Shown piece by piece: positions 4,691-29,000 of a DNA stretch of 64,000 nucleotides. The notes under the pieces were generated by a model. The model made no database searches. It was not told the origin of the DNA and saw only the letters and a program-made list of their open reading frames with translations. The translations under genes and the position numbers were made by a program. The stretch's first letter is position 1. Every line of letters starts with the position of its first letter. The stretch is taken from positions 1 through 64,000 of the forward strand of contig JADGRO010000035.1 of the NCBI GenBank assembly GCA_017880905.1. The letters run 5' to 3'. The stretch is from Methylotenera sp. Lineage in GTDB: Bacteria; Pseudomonadota; Gammaproteobacteria; Burkholderiales; Methylophilaceae.

Positions 4691-6622
4691 ATGGCTACTA
4701 ACTCTTACAACTCCGCTAAAAAACAAATTTTAATACTGATTGGTTCTATCTACATTGGCGAATTGCTGATTATGGTAGCTTTTGCAGTACTTCCAAAGTT
4801 ACCTGAATGGATAGAAACAATAGTAGACCCCACTATACTTTCCATATTTTGTGCCCCTATCCTTTATTTAAATGTGTTTCGCCCAACGACAAGACGTATT
4901 TCTCAACTAAGTATAGCTAAAAATCAATTACGCACTACCGCCGCTGCATTTGAAACCTATGACGCCATCATGATTACAGACGCTGAAGCAAATATTATTC
5001 GTGTTAATCGTGCTTTTGAGCGCACAACTGGTTTTAAAGAGGAAGAAGTAATAGGTAAAACCTCCCATATTTTGAAATCGGAACTTCACGACCAAGCTTT
5101 CTACACTAAAATGATGGGGGATTTATTAACTAAAAATGTTTGGAGTGGCGAAGTATGGGATAAACATAAGGATGGCAGCGTTCATCCCAAGCTTGTAACG
5201 ATTTCAGCCATTAAAAATGCTGCGAGTAAAACCACCCAATATGTCTCCATATTCACTGACATTTCTGATCGAAAAAAAGCTGAAAAAGAGATTCATAATC
5301 TAGCCTTCTACGACACATTGACCGGGCTTCCTAATCGGCGATTACTACGCGATAGACTCGAAGTTGCGCTTACCTCTTCTGCTCGCAGTCACCAATACGG
5401 CGCATTGCTGTTTCTCGATTTAGATAACTTTAAAACGTTAAACGATTCTCTTGGGCACGAATATGGGGATATGTTACTGGTTGAAGTTGCCAATCGGATT
5501 AAATTCAGTTTGAGAGAAGCAGATACTGTGGCTCGCTTAGGTGGAGACGAATTCGTGATATTGGTCGAAAAAATTGGCACGAACTCAGAAAGAGCCTCAC
5601 AAAGGGTTGCACTACTTGCTGAAAAAATACGTACCATTTTAACCGAGCCGTATCAGTTAAAGGAAAGCTTACGGCACTCTTCACCTAGCATTGGCATATG
5701 TATGTTCTGCGACCAAGATGAGCTTGTTGATGAATTGCTTAAACGCGCCGATATGGCGATGTATCAAGCTAAGAGCTCTGGTCGTAATAAAACCTGCTTC
5801 TTTGATCCACGCATGCAGCAATTGACAGAAAAACGCGCTGCACTAGAATCGGATTTACGTATAGCGCTGACCGAGGGGCAATTGCGCTTGCACTACCAAA
5901 TTCAGCTAGACCAAGAACGAATTCCTATCGGTGCAGAAGCTTTAGTGCGCTGGATACATCCCCAACACGGCATGGTTCCACCCTCTGACTTTATTCCCGT
6001 AGCAGAAGAAAGTTCGCTAATCGTGGAAATCGGTGATTGGGTGCTGGACAATGCCTGCAGACAAATTGCTGAGTGGCGCTATAACGAGCAAACGCGCAAC
6101 TTGGTGCTTGCAGTTAATATTAGCGCACAACAATTTACACAGCCAGATTTTGTGGAGAAAATTACCGCACTGCTTAAGAAATACAGCATCGAAGCCTCTC
6201 GCTTAAAATTGGAATTAACCGAAAGCGTTGTGGTTAACGATTTAAAATCTGTTGTAGCCAAAATGAATGTCTTGAGGGATACGCTAGGCGTTACATTATC
6301 ACTGGACGATTTTGGAACAGGATACTCATCGCTATCATATTTAAAACAGTTGCCACTTGATCAAATCAAGATAGACCAAAGCTTTGTGCGTGACATGACG
6401 ACAGATGCCAGTGACGCAATGATGGTAAAAAATATCATCGACATGGCGCATAACTTTGGCTTGAACGTTATCGCCGAGGGTGTAGAAACGGAAGATCAAC
6501 TGGCGCTGCTTAAGAAAAATGGCTGTAAGTCTTATCAAGGTTACCTATTTAGTAAACCAATACCAATCGAACAATTTGAGATATTTTTAACAGAAAGCCA
6601 ATTACCTTTTAGGATTGAATAA
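4691..6622 (+). CDS. Membrane PAS-GGDEF-EAL c-di-GMP signalling protein
   Basis: Two N-terminal TMs, PAS region, ARLGGDEFVIL, EALVRW, DDFGTGYSSLSYL. Confidence 0.95.
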   Translation: MATNSYNSAKKQILILIGSIYIGELLIMVAFAVLPKLPEWIETIVDPTILSIFCAPILYLNVFRPTTRRISQLSIAKNQLRTTAAAFETYDAIMITDAEANIIRVNRAFERTTGFKEEEVIGKTSHILKSELHDQAFYTKMMGDLLTKNVWSGEVWDKHKDGSVHPKLVTISAIKNAASKTTQYVSIFTDISDRKKAEKEIHNLAFYDTLTGLPNRRLLRDRLEVALTSSARSHQYGALLFLDLDNFKTLNDSLGHEYGDMLLVEVANRIKFSLREADTVARLGGDEFVILVEKIGTNSERASQRVALLAEKIRTILTEPYQLKESLRHSSPSIGICMFCDQDELVDELLKRADMAMYQAKSSGRNKTCFFDPRMQQLTEKRAALESDLRIALTEGQLRLHYQIQLDQERIPIGAEALVRWIHPQHGMVPPSDFIPVAEESSLIVEIGDWVLDNACRQIAEWRYNEQTRNLVLAVNISAQQFTQPDFVEKITALLKKYSIEASRLKLELTESVVVNDLKSVVAKMNVLRDTLGVTLSLDDFGTGYSSLSYLKQLPLDQIKIDQSFVRDMTTDASDAMMVKNIIDMAHNFGLNVIAEGVETEDQLALLKKNGCKSYQGYLFSKPIPIEQFEIFLTESQLPFRIE

Positions 6623-25126: not shown

Positions 25127-25149
25127 GCGTACATTCTAGCACTACATAA

Positions 25150-25183
25150 GTGACTTATCAGGGATAGCAAACTCACAGAATCG
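25150..25183. repeat. Possible degenerate copy 3 of the hairpin repeat
   Basis: GTGACTTATCAGGGATAGCAAACTCACAGAATCG, gapped similarity to copy 2. Confidence 0.3.
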
Positions 25184-25209
25184 TCATTCCCGCGTAGGCG
25201 GGAATGACG
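25182..25209. repeat. REP-like perfect inverted repeat
   Basis: CGTCATTCCCGC-GTAG-GCGGGAATGACG, 12-bp arms. Confidence 0.8.
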
Positions 25210-25261
25210 GAGTAGAAATATGAAAGACTTACTAAAAAAAATAAGCAACGATGGAACTTAA

Positions 25262-25500
25262 CTTGGTTTTCAATCCCCTTTGCCGCGCCTTCGGCTTGAG
25301 CGGCAGATGGATAGCGGCGAGGACTGTTTGAGCGTAGCGAGTCCCACAGCCGCCCAGATGAGGCGCTAAGACCGAAGGAAACAAGCGGCAGCGGGGTAGC
25401 CTTTTCTTTCCCCTATTTCTTTTGGCTAAGCAAAAGAAATAGGGTCGCTAGTCGCGCGAAAGCGACCATCTGTATATGGGGCAACGCCTTTTTTGTTATT
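25262..25500. repeat. Structured intergenic repetitive element (multiple hairpins)
   Basis: CCCTATTTCTTTTG-gctaag-CAAAAGAAATAGGG (25411..25444), GGTCGCT...AGCGACC (25443..25467), GCCGC-CTTCGG-GCGGC-type inverted segments; no ORF. Confidence 0.6.
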
Positions 25501-25518
25501 GCGGCCAACACAAACTTG

Positions 25519-25562
25519 TTGACAAAAAAAATTAAATAAATAATAATACTGTAACAGTATTA
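25519..25562 (+). promoter_or_regulatory. Promoter with overlapping 19-nt palindromic operator
   Basis: TTGACA (25519..25524), 17 nt, AATAAT (25542..25547); TAATACTGT-A-ACAGTATTA at 25544..25562. Confidence 0.7.
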
Positions 25563-25581
25563 CATTTTAATAGGAGTATTT

Positions 25582-26037
25582 ATGGCACCTACAATTCGTA
25601 TTGACGACCAAGTTTATTTTTGGCTTCAAAAAAATGCTAAGCCTTTTGAAGATACCCCTAACTCAGTGTTACGAAGAGTAGCCGGGCTAGAAGAATCAAG
25701 CCCTTCAACTACATCCAATAATTCTAAGGAGAAAAAAATGATAGCGAATACCCCACAAAGCAGAGGAGTCTCAACTTACAAGCCTGGAAGAATAGGCCTT
25801 AGCGGGAAACAACTTAACAAAAAATGGGGAGTTGGCGCTCGCCATGCCCTATTTAATAAAGATGGTGCATTCTATGAAAATTTAAAAGAATTTCCTGGGG
25901 CGCTTTTTGATACAAAAGGTTACTTATTATTTAGAACAGAAGAAGAATATAGACAAAATCCACATTTAAAAATTACCAAGAAAACTAATGTCAATTATGA
26001 CATTGCATCCATCCCTGGATATGTGAAAAAAGAATAA
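25582..26037 (+). CDS. Ribbon-helix-helix-like N-terminus fused to a small conserved-looking C-terminal domain; function unknown
   Basis: MAPTIRIDDQVYFWLQKNAKPFEDTPNSVLRRVAGL (RHH/SeqA-N-like); GKQLNKKWGVGARHALFNKDGAFYENLKEFPGALFDTKGYLLFRTEEEY...IASIPGYV. AGGAG SD before ATG. Confidence 0.7.
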   Translation: MAPTIRIDDQVYFWLQKNAKPFEDTPNSVLRRVAGLEESSPSTTSNNSKEKKMIANTPQSRGVSTYKPGRIGLSGKQLNKKWGVGARHALFNKDGAFYENLKEFPGALFDTKGYLLFRTEEEYRQNPHLKITKKTNVNYDIASIPGYVKKE

Positions 26038-26071
26038 CAGCCTTTATTATCAAGGTGTTGTTCTAATACTT

Positions 26072-29000
26072 TTACAACAACACCTTCTCAATCCCACCAT
26101 TATTCACTCTCTCCACATATTCCTGCATCCAATTATCCCCAAGAATATGCTTCGCCATCTCTACCACAATATAATCGGCCTCAATGCCTGTATCGTCGCC
26201 ATAGCGCGCCAAGCCTTGCAGACAGCTTGGACAGCTGGTCAATATTTTTACTTTTTCTTCAGGCTTACCCACTGTTAAGCCCATTTTTTCCATGCCTTTT
26301 TCCAGCTCTTCCTGTTTACGCATTTTTACCTGCGTCGCAATATCCGGGCGGGCGGCGGCAAAGGTGCCGCTCTCACCGCAGCAGCGGTCATTCAGCACGA
26401 CATCCTGCCCCATCAGCGTGTTGGTGACTTTAAGCGGCGCATAGGTTTTCATCGGGCTGTGGCATGGGTCGTGGTACATGTAGCGCGTGCCAGTGACGGT
26501 TTGCAAGCGCATATCTTTTTCCATCAGATATTCGTGAATATCCAGCAATCTGCAACCCGGAAAGATTTTTTCAAACTCGTATTTTTGCAGTTGGTCCATA
26601 CAGGTGCCGCAAGACACAATTACCGTTTTAATGTCGAGATAATTGAGCGTATTGGCGACGCGATGAAACAACACACGGTTATCAGTAGTGATTTGCAAAC
26701 CTTTATCGTGATTACCACTTGAAGTTTGCGGGTAGCCGCAACACAAGTAACCGGGCGGCAATACAGTAATGGCGCCCACCTCGTATAGCATGGCTTGCGT
26801 AGCTAATCCCACATTAGAAAATAAGCGCTCTGAGCCGCAACCTGGGAAATAAAACACGGCTTCTGAATCCTCAGTGACCGTTTTCGGGTTACGAATCACA
26901 GGAATCATACGATCATCTTCCACACCCAGCATAGCGCGCGAGGTTTTAGATTGCATTTTTTTAGGCATGGGGCGATTAATAAAGTGCACCACTTGCGCCT
27001 TGATTTCCGGCTTGCCAACTGTGGCGGTTGGACGTTTTTTATCACGAAGCAAGCCAAATCTTTTTGCTAGAGTATGTGCAAAGTTCTGTGCTTTATAGCC
27101 AAACCCAATCATCGTAGCGCGCAAAAATTTAATCGTCGCAGGGTCTTTGGCATTTAAAAACAACATGCCTGCTGCTGTGCCGAGGTTAAATTTCTTTTTA
27201 CCCTGCTCGCGTAAAAAGTTGCGCATTTTAATCGACACATCACCAAAATCAATATCCACCGGGCATGGGTTTAAGCACTTGTGGCACACTGTGCAGTGAT
27301 CGGCCACATCGTTAAAATCATCAAAATGTTTGAGTGAAATGCCGCGCCGCGTTTGCTCTTCGTACAAGAAAGCTTCAATAAGTAACGATGTGCCCAAAAT
27401 TTTGTTACGCGGGCTGTACAACAAATTGGCACGTGGCACATGGGTGGTACACACCGGCTTACATTTACCGCAACGTAAGCAATCGCTAATATCATCGGCA
27501 ATTTCGCCAATGGCAGATTGTTCCATAATGATAGATTCTTGCTCCAGCAAGCCAAAGCTGGGTGTGTAGGCGTTCTCAAGCCCGGAACCTGCCAACAGCT
27601 TACCTTTGTTAAAGTGGCCGTTGGGGTCAACTTTATTTTTGTAGGTGGTAAAATTATCTATGGTAATTTGGTCTAAAAACTCCATTTTGGTGATGCCAAT
27701 ACCGTGCTCTCCAGAAATCACGCCGTCTAAGCTTTTCGCCAGCATCATCACACGCGCAACTGCGCTGTGCGCATCATGCATCATCTCGTAATCATCTGAA
27801 TTCACAGGAATATTAGTATGCACGTTGCCATCACCCGCATGCATGTGCAAGGCAATAAACACGCGGCTTTTCAGCACGATTTTATGAATTTCATCGCATC
27901 GACTCAAGATTTTTTGATATTCCCGCCCACTAAAAATCTCTTCCAATTGATGTTTTAATTCGCGCTTCCAAGAAATGCGTAAATCGTAAGATTGCACTGC
28001 ACGGAATACATTTTCGTATTTTGTTAATGCTTTGCTTTCCTTACCCAGTGCAGAAACTGGCGCATCAAGGCTATTCAAAATTAAACTCCAACGACTACGC
28101 AGATCACGTAATAATTGTAAGGCAATCGCTTGTTTAGCCTGCACCATTTGCACATCGGCATTGCCATCTTCATCCGCCTGCAAAGGCAACTCGCTATGCA
28201 TAAAGGTTTCCAGCGCATCTAATAACTTGAGCTTATTATTGATTGAAAGCTCGATATTAATGCGTTCGATGCCATCAGAATAATCACCCAATTTTGGTAG
28301 TGGAATCACTACGTCCTCGTTGATTTTAAAGGCGTTGGTGTGTTTGGCGATAGCCGCAGTACGAGCGCGATCGAGCCAGAATTTTTTGCGTGCATCAGCC
28401 GACACAGCAATAAAACCTTCGCCATCACGCACATTGCACATGCGCACCACCTGCGACGCCACTTCGCCCACTGCATTTTCATCGTCAGAGGCAATGTCGG
28501 CAATTAACACCATTTTGGGCCGTTGCTGGCGTGCGGCCTTGGTCGCATAGCCTACGGCTTTAATGTAGCGCTCGTCCATGTGCTCCAAGCCCGCCATGAT
28601 AACGGCAGGATCTTTTTTCGCCGTAGCATCAAGATAATCTTTAATCTCTACAATCGCAGGCACGGCATGTGAAACGTTGCCAAAAAATTCCAGTGCAATC
28701 GTGCGCACATGTTTAGGCATGCGGTGCAAAATAAAGGTAGCGCTAGTAATTAAGCCATCACAGCCTTCTTTTTGAATGCCGGGAAGCCCTGAGAGAAACT
28801 TGTCGGTAACGTCTTTACCCAACCCGACTTTTCTAAAACTAGGGCCTGGAATTTCGATAATTTCAGGTTCAGCTAACAAGGTTTTCATATCAATGTCATA
28901 GCGATTAATTTTGAAACGTGCTATGGCGATATCATGAATTTTGCCAAGATTGTGATCCAAGCGTTCTACTTCTAACCAAGTCGCATCGGGTGTTACCATG

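Follow-up and report, generated by a model that had tools for sequence, protein, structure and literature searches.

The window described here, the whole 64,000-nucleotide stretch of DNA from Methylotenera sp. that was analyzed (contig JADGRO010000035.1, positions 1 to 64,000), carries a lone gene for a protein of 151 amino acids. The original prediction took this protein to be an orphan with a ribbon-helix-helix (RHH) head and an uncharacterized tail, and suggested a sensor of DNA modification or a defense-linked repressor. The question raised by this locus is what the two parts of such a protein recognize, and whether the protein has relatives from which its function can be deduced. The features are listed below.

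25181–25211, no strand: short palindromic dispersed repeat that recurs across the genus
25268–25466, no strand: dispersed genus-wide repeat of ~200 bp, upstream of the gene
25519–25547, forward: sigma-70-like promoter, TTGACA-17-AATAAT, 11 of 12 positions, by pattern match only
25544–25562, no strand: 19-bp palindrome, TAATACTGT-A-ACAGTATTA, which includes the first box
25550–25564, forward: tandem operator-like boxes, TGTAACA-G-TATTACA, in an 8-bp register over the expected transcription start
25582–26037, forward: gene for the RHH head and C-terminal domain, 151 amino acids, 12 relatives with the same architecture
25582–25689, forward: residues 1–36, RHH, SeqA_N-like, with strand residue R6 (TIRID)
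25690–25788, forward: residues 37–69, flexible linker, pLDDT 45–58
25789–26034, forward: residues 70–151, undescribed restriction-associated domain with the core FP[GA]xL[FC]DxxGYxxF
26052–26086, no strand: inverted repeat at the 3' end, shared with the end of the converging gene, a possible terminator

Architecture of the Protein

The reading frame at 25582–26037 on the forward strand translates exactly to the protein quoted in the original prediction, and the reverse strand of this stretch holds no long frame. The gene had been described as AT-rich and situated in a repeat-filled island; its GC content is 36.6%, compared with 44.6% for the window, and the repeats do recur genus-wide. Searches of Pfam and PADLOC with the window protein matched no family, and PHROGs returned a weak match only. 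No nuclease domain was found in the 151 residues or among the neighboring genes, and thus the window protein is not itself a restriction enzyme.

In the full-length model the residues between the head and the tail are of low confidence, and the domain at approximately 70–151 is mostly above a pLDDT of 90, in agreement with the proposed linker followed by a compact C-terminal domain. The protein is not an orphan. The same order of RHH, linker, and domain is found at 12 other loci (L009, L021, L026, L041, L046, L048, L057, L067, L071, L082, L086, and L089), and this architecture, which 13 proteins spanning at least two phyla have in common, is well supported. A tree of the 82-column domain lacks the resolution to tell whether the RHH fusion had a single origin.

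The proposed RHH/SeqA-like segment of about 36 residues was recovered by both profile and fold searches. The family profile matched the N-terminus of SeqA in the PDB (1xrx, E = 0.027), and Foldseek returned 1xrx and 3fmt for the RHH at a probability of 0.93–0.97, though with E values of 0.4–0.6. Pfam did not list SeqA_N for the window protein itself. On these modest statistics from sequence and model, the head appears to be of the SeqA_N type. A profile of the RHH by itself picked out SeqA proteins among 399 genomes, and a scan of viral contigs for the RHH motif found none. The 347 genomes of the L082 family contain the known fusions, stand-alone copies of the domain, and RHH segments with other tails; at L149 and L151, from genomes of this family, a SeqA_N-like RHH is joined to a different C-terminal domain.

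A search with the RHH consensus also found five RHH-RAMA proteins on plasmids of Rhodococcus and Streptomyces (L132–L136), the tails of which match RAMA (PF18755) above the curated cutoff, with E values of 1e-11 to 1e-16. Strand position 6 of the RHH is Glu in L046 and Arg in the other RHH fusions; it is Glu in SeqA and in four of the five RHH-RAMA proteins, and Gln in the fifth. In typical RHH proteins this position faces the DNA, and it is therefore a plausible candidate specificity residue.

A Domain Shared with Restriction Enzymes

The isolated C-terminal domain is predicted by AlphaFold to be a compact alpha/beta structure (pLDDT 93.8, pTM 0.84). The proposed Foldseek comparison of this domain with the PDB gave no match (best E = 3.2, probability 0.04), and nothing in the fold search ties it to a known DNA reader; the model may represent a new fold, or the domain may be too small for the method. 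It is also absent from Pfam, NCBIfam, and PADLOC.

Searches with the single protein sequence returned nothing from genome contigs, viral contigs, or phages, and one relative of the C-terminal half from plasmids: a stand-alone protein of 92 residues from Mesorhizobium, encoded directly 3' of a D12 adenine methyltransferase. The relatives were gathered with one degenerate DNA pattern for FP[GA]xL[FCIV]DxxG[YF]xxF, which matched 91 stretches in the genome collection and two true relatives in viral contigs. After removal of the false matches, 81 members remained, and the size and variety of this family are bounded by the pattern used. The members are spread over many bacterial phyla (Pseudomonadota, Chloroflexota, Bacteroidota, Verrucomicrobiota, Acidobacteriota, and others), the two viral contigs, and one archaeal contig. 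The window domain is 32–56% identical to distant relatives and retains every invariant residue; the invariant core (G, F, P, D, G, and F) does not look like a catalytic set.

Some apparent matches were discarded. A two-row profile gave a false match to an unrelated protein (L004), and this match came up again with the deep profile (L122). A match to tectonin (E = 4e-4 in total) had no single significant domain and was judged to be driven by repeats. The assignment by eye of L127 as RAMA-like was not confirmed by Pfam.

The original prediction suggested that similar modules occur as accessory parts of restriction-type or modification-dependent proteins, and the link to restriction has held up. 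About 29 relatives combine the domain with HNH (by motif); in a Pfam scan of six of them, five were above the curated HNH cutoff and L098 was just below it. Pfam identified fusions with GmrSD_N (L068 and L085) and with NOV_C (L059). In L083 the domain carries an extension that is nuclease-like by eye, with no Pfam assignment. Other family members consist of the domain as a stand-alone protein. The most frequent Pfam families next to the stand-alone copies are N6_N4_Mtase (four proteins), phage integrase (three), and HATPase_c_3 (two). The copy at L006 adjoins Vsr and a GHKL-like ATPase, those at L015 and L038 adjoin a methyltransferase and an ATPase, and that at L050 adjoins a methyltransferase and HerA. 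With nuclease fusions and neighbors such as methyltransferases, Vsr, GHKL ATPases, and HerA, the domain is not a mundane family lacking any link to nucleases, modification, or defense.

Neighborhoods of this kind were found for the stand-alone copies and not for the RHH fusions, which lie among housekeeping genes with no nuclease or methyltransferase neighbors. The link to defense therefore rests on the other proteins that bear the domain. Two further arrangements were observed. At L014 (1962–4450) a stand-alone domain is flanked by same-strand AbiEi- and AbiEii-like genes. At L015, L038, and L006 a stand-alone domain and a GHKL ATPase recur together with either a methyltransferase or Vsr, and this grouping could be an undescribed restriction-like system.

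Operator-like Boxes at the Promoter

The promoter and operator-like boxes upstream of the gene had been missed by the original prediction. The 19-bp palindrome overlaps the promoter and has perfect 9-bp arms; when these 90 bases were shuffled 5000 times, arms this long arose 74 times. It is the sole copy in the genome at up to two mismatches.

A tandem TGTNACA pair in the 8-bp register was found over the promoters of the RHH fusions, with at least 10 of 12 matches in 10 of the 13 genes, a motif that was noticed after inspection of the data and in a set that includes four close relatives. The weaker scores are 9/12 for L021 and L057 and 6/12 for L046. For 63 family genes without an RHH, the upstream regions of which were scored as the best over all candidate starts, the box score was 8/12 or lower. 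A perfect TTGACA precedes the boxes by 31 bp in the window gene, L009, and L026, and by 33–34 bp in L067 and L089. The 347 genomes of the L082 family were screened for a prospective test of the boxes, but no new RHH fusion was found among them. That the RHH fusions carry conserved operator-like boxes on their own promoters is well supported.

The exception is L046, which is without the boxes and also has Glu at position 6. Upstream of position 5497 at this locus there are repeated AGTAAWTTACT-like palindromes, which are perhaps its own operator. A search for other operator sites in the genome of the window gene gave matches at the chance level only, none above the control count. The suggestion of a repressor is thus supported insofar as conserved boxes lie on the promoters of the RHH fusions, but the only predicted target is the gene itself.

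Mobility of the Gene

The distribution of the window gene is patchy, and it is missing from 100 relatives. It lies between a gene for a 258-residue hypothetical protein and a long oxidoreductase gene, and in seven congeners the equivalent intergenic site is empty or contains repeats only or other small sequences. Many copies of the ~200-bp repeat occur through the genus, often beside small variable sequences at the window site.

In L009, from Silanimonas, the RHH fusion is an integron cassette, located between attC-like repeats (11 copies with GCCTAAC...GTTAGGC ends) and beside an integrase-like frame identified by eye (L153, 1–1059). No attC-like site was found at 25127–26200 of the window. 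A stand-alone domain lies within a second attC-like array (L152:3867–7143, GCCTAAC...TTGTTAG), and thus cassettes may carry the domain without an RHH as well. The best reading of the window gene is that of a horizontally acquired lone mobile unit.

Proposed Function

On balance, we lean toward an autoregulated RHH-reader protein, the head of which acts on its own boxes and the tail of which recognizes a mark or a site on DNA. The protein would be a small, dimeric DNA-binding protein that dimerizes through the RHH head. Like MetJ on met boxes, the RHH dimer would bind the tandem 8-bp TGTNACA boxes lying over its own promoter and would thereby keep its synthesis in check. The flexible linker would join this head to a noncatalytic recognition module of ~80 residues, for which the most likely job would be recognition of a DNA mark or site, on a plan like that of SeqA or RHH-RAMA. 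Since the domain is tied elsewhere to DNA-cutting defense enzymes, the window protein probably recognizes marks or sites on DNA in a manner comparable to the reading of methylated DNA by SeqA. Heads of this RHH kind occur with at least three tails, namely the SeqA reader, RAMA, and the domain described here, and a recognition role is thus the simplest reading of the tail. We infer further that the tail may prefer modified DNA and that the protein may serve defense or counter-defense.

A broader proposal is offered more tentatively, as we hold it to be somewhat improbable in full. The domain would be an undescribed family of readers of modified DNA (or of damage or structure) with its own fold, conferring specificity on HNH and GmrSD restriction enzymes, and the RHH-plus-reader proteins would be mobile, single-gene epigenetic readers in phage defense or counter-defense.

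Other explanations have to be weighed against the autoregulated reader. The protein could be a counter-defense decoy that covers the sites attacked by domain-bearing HNH or GmrSD nucleases, or that binds those nucleases, and so shields mobile DNA. The presence of a recognition module without any nuclease would fit a decoy, as would the occurrence of one RHH fusion as an integron cassette, the variable site of the window copy, and the plasmid location of the related RHH-RAMA proteins. However, searches of the genome of the window gene found no copy of the domain other than this one, and no cognate nuclease with the domain is therefore present in the genome as assembled; we consider the decoy unlikely. 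To much the same degree we doubt that the protein is an ordinary autoregulated transcription factor with a tail that senses a small molecule or a protein, the domain then having an allosteric or protein-contact role in restriction enzymes. In its favor, a repressor role is likely given the conserved operator, the domain is rich in conserved aromatic and glycine residues from which a ligand pocket could be built, and no known reader matches it in fold. Against this reading, the domain is repeatedly paired with nucleases and methyltransferases in the place of a specificity domain, and the parallel architectures of RHH-RAMA and SeqA favor DNA recognition.

It is very improbable that the gene is a decaying, functionless frame in a repeat-rich spacer. 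It is a lone, AT-rich gene next to dispersed repeats and is absent from congeners, but the frame is intact, the domain keeps its invariant residues at the identities given above, and the promoter match is near-perfect and accompanied by the palindrome with its perfect arms. The sole NCBIfam match to the window protein, NF047386 (residues 3–81, E = 2e-6), would make it a type IV secretion effector of the SepA family, a name derived from Brucella SepA (PMC4602199). This assignment is extremely improbable: the score of 27.7 bits does not reach the curated cutoff of 110 bits, the match covers the N-terminal stretch only, and the gene has a self-directed candidate operator and a restriction-linked domain.

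The autoregulated reader is of interest because the range of DNA that restriction enzymes can recognize is set by their reader domains. With each of the known readers (SRA, EVE, YTH, and winged helix), a group of modification-dependent nucleases became accessible. The present domain has a confident model and at least 81 members, and its natural fusions to HNH and GmrSD_N are open to direct assay.

Comparison with SeqA, RHH-RAMA, MetJ, and Restriction Enzymes

The closest parallel is SeqA (SeqA_N, PF17206), which has a homologous-looking N-terminal RHH, a flexible linker, and a C-terminal recognition domain. The C-terminal domain of the window protein is unrelated to the methylation-reading domain of SeqA, and Pfam, PDB profile, and fold searches did not find the hemimethylated-GATC-binding domain of SeqA in the window protein. 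The N-terminal domain of SeqA oligomerizes and does not bind DNA, which counts against a DNA-binding head in the window protein. SeqA has Glu at RHH position 6, whereas the window protein has Arg, and the window gene has on its own promoter the operator boxes that are conserved in the RHH fusions. SeqA is encoded by a chromosomal housekeeping gene, and the window gene is a mobile lone gene.

The RHH-RAMA proteins are equal in size to the window protein and have the same kind of RHH head and a tail shared with proteins of restriction and methylation. RAMA, which occurs in fusions with nucleases, has been proposed to read adenine methylation, although its preference for methylated DNA is disputed (PMC11037411). 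Pfam found no RAMA (PF18755) in the window protein, and the sole hhalign comparison of the window-type tail with one RAMA-like sequence gave a probability of 0.1%. There are no TGTNACA boxes upstream of the RHH-RAMA genes. Upstream of L132 lies a perfect palindrome of another sequence (TAAGTTCTTAAGAACTTA), and each RHH subgroup may thus have its own operator.

The RHH repressors of the MetJ/met-box type also have tandem, near-palindromic 8-bp boxes over a promoter. The likeness is confined to this layout, since the box sequence and the C-terminal domain differ and the only predicted site of the window protein is its own promoter. Known modification-dependent HNH and GmrSD restriction enzymes use SRA, EVE, YTH, or winged-helix specificity domains (PMC6212794, PMC7641849, PMC11037411, PMC4619093). 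In the relatives, the domain described here sits beside HNH or GmrSD_N in the place of a specificity domain, but it is not a known reader fold in Pfam or the PDB, and the window protein is without a nuclease. The RHH fusions, with their conserved candidate operator, suggest a wider RHH-plus-reader theme to which both SeqA and RHH-RAMA belong. The plan of an RHH plus a reader is known; the undescribed C-terminal domain is what is new.
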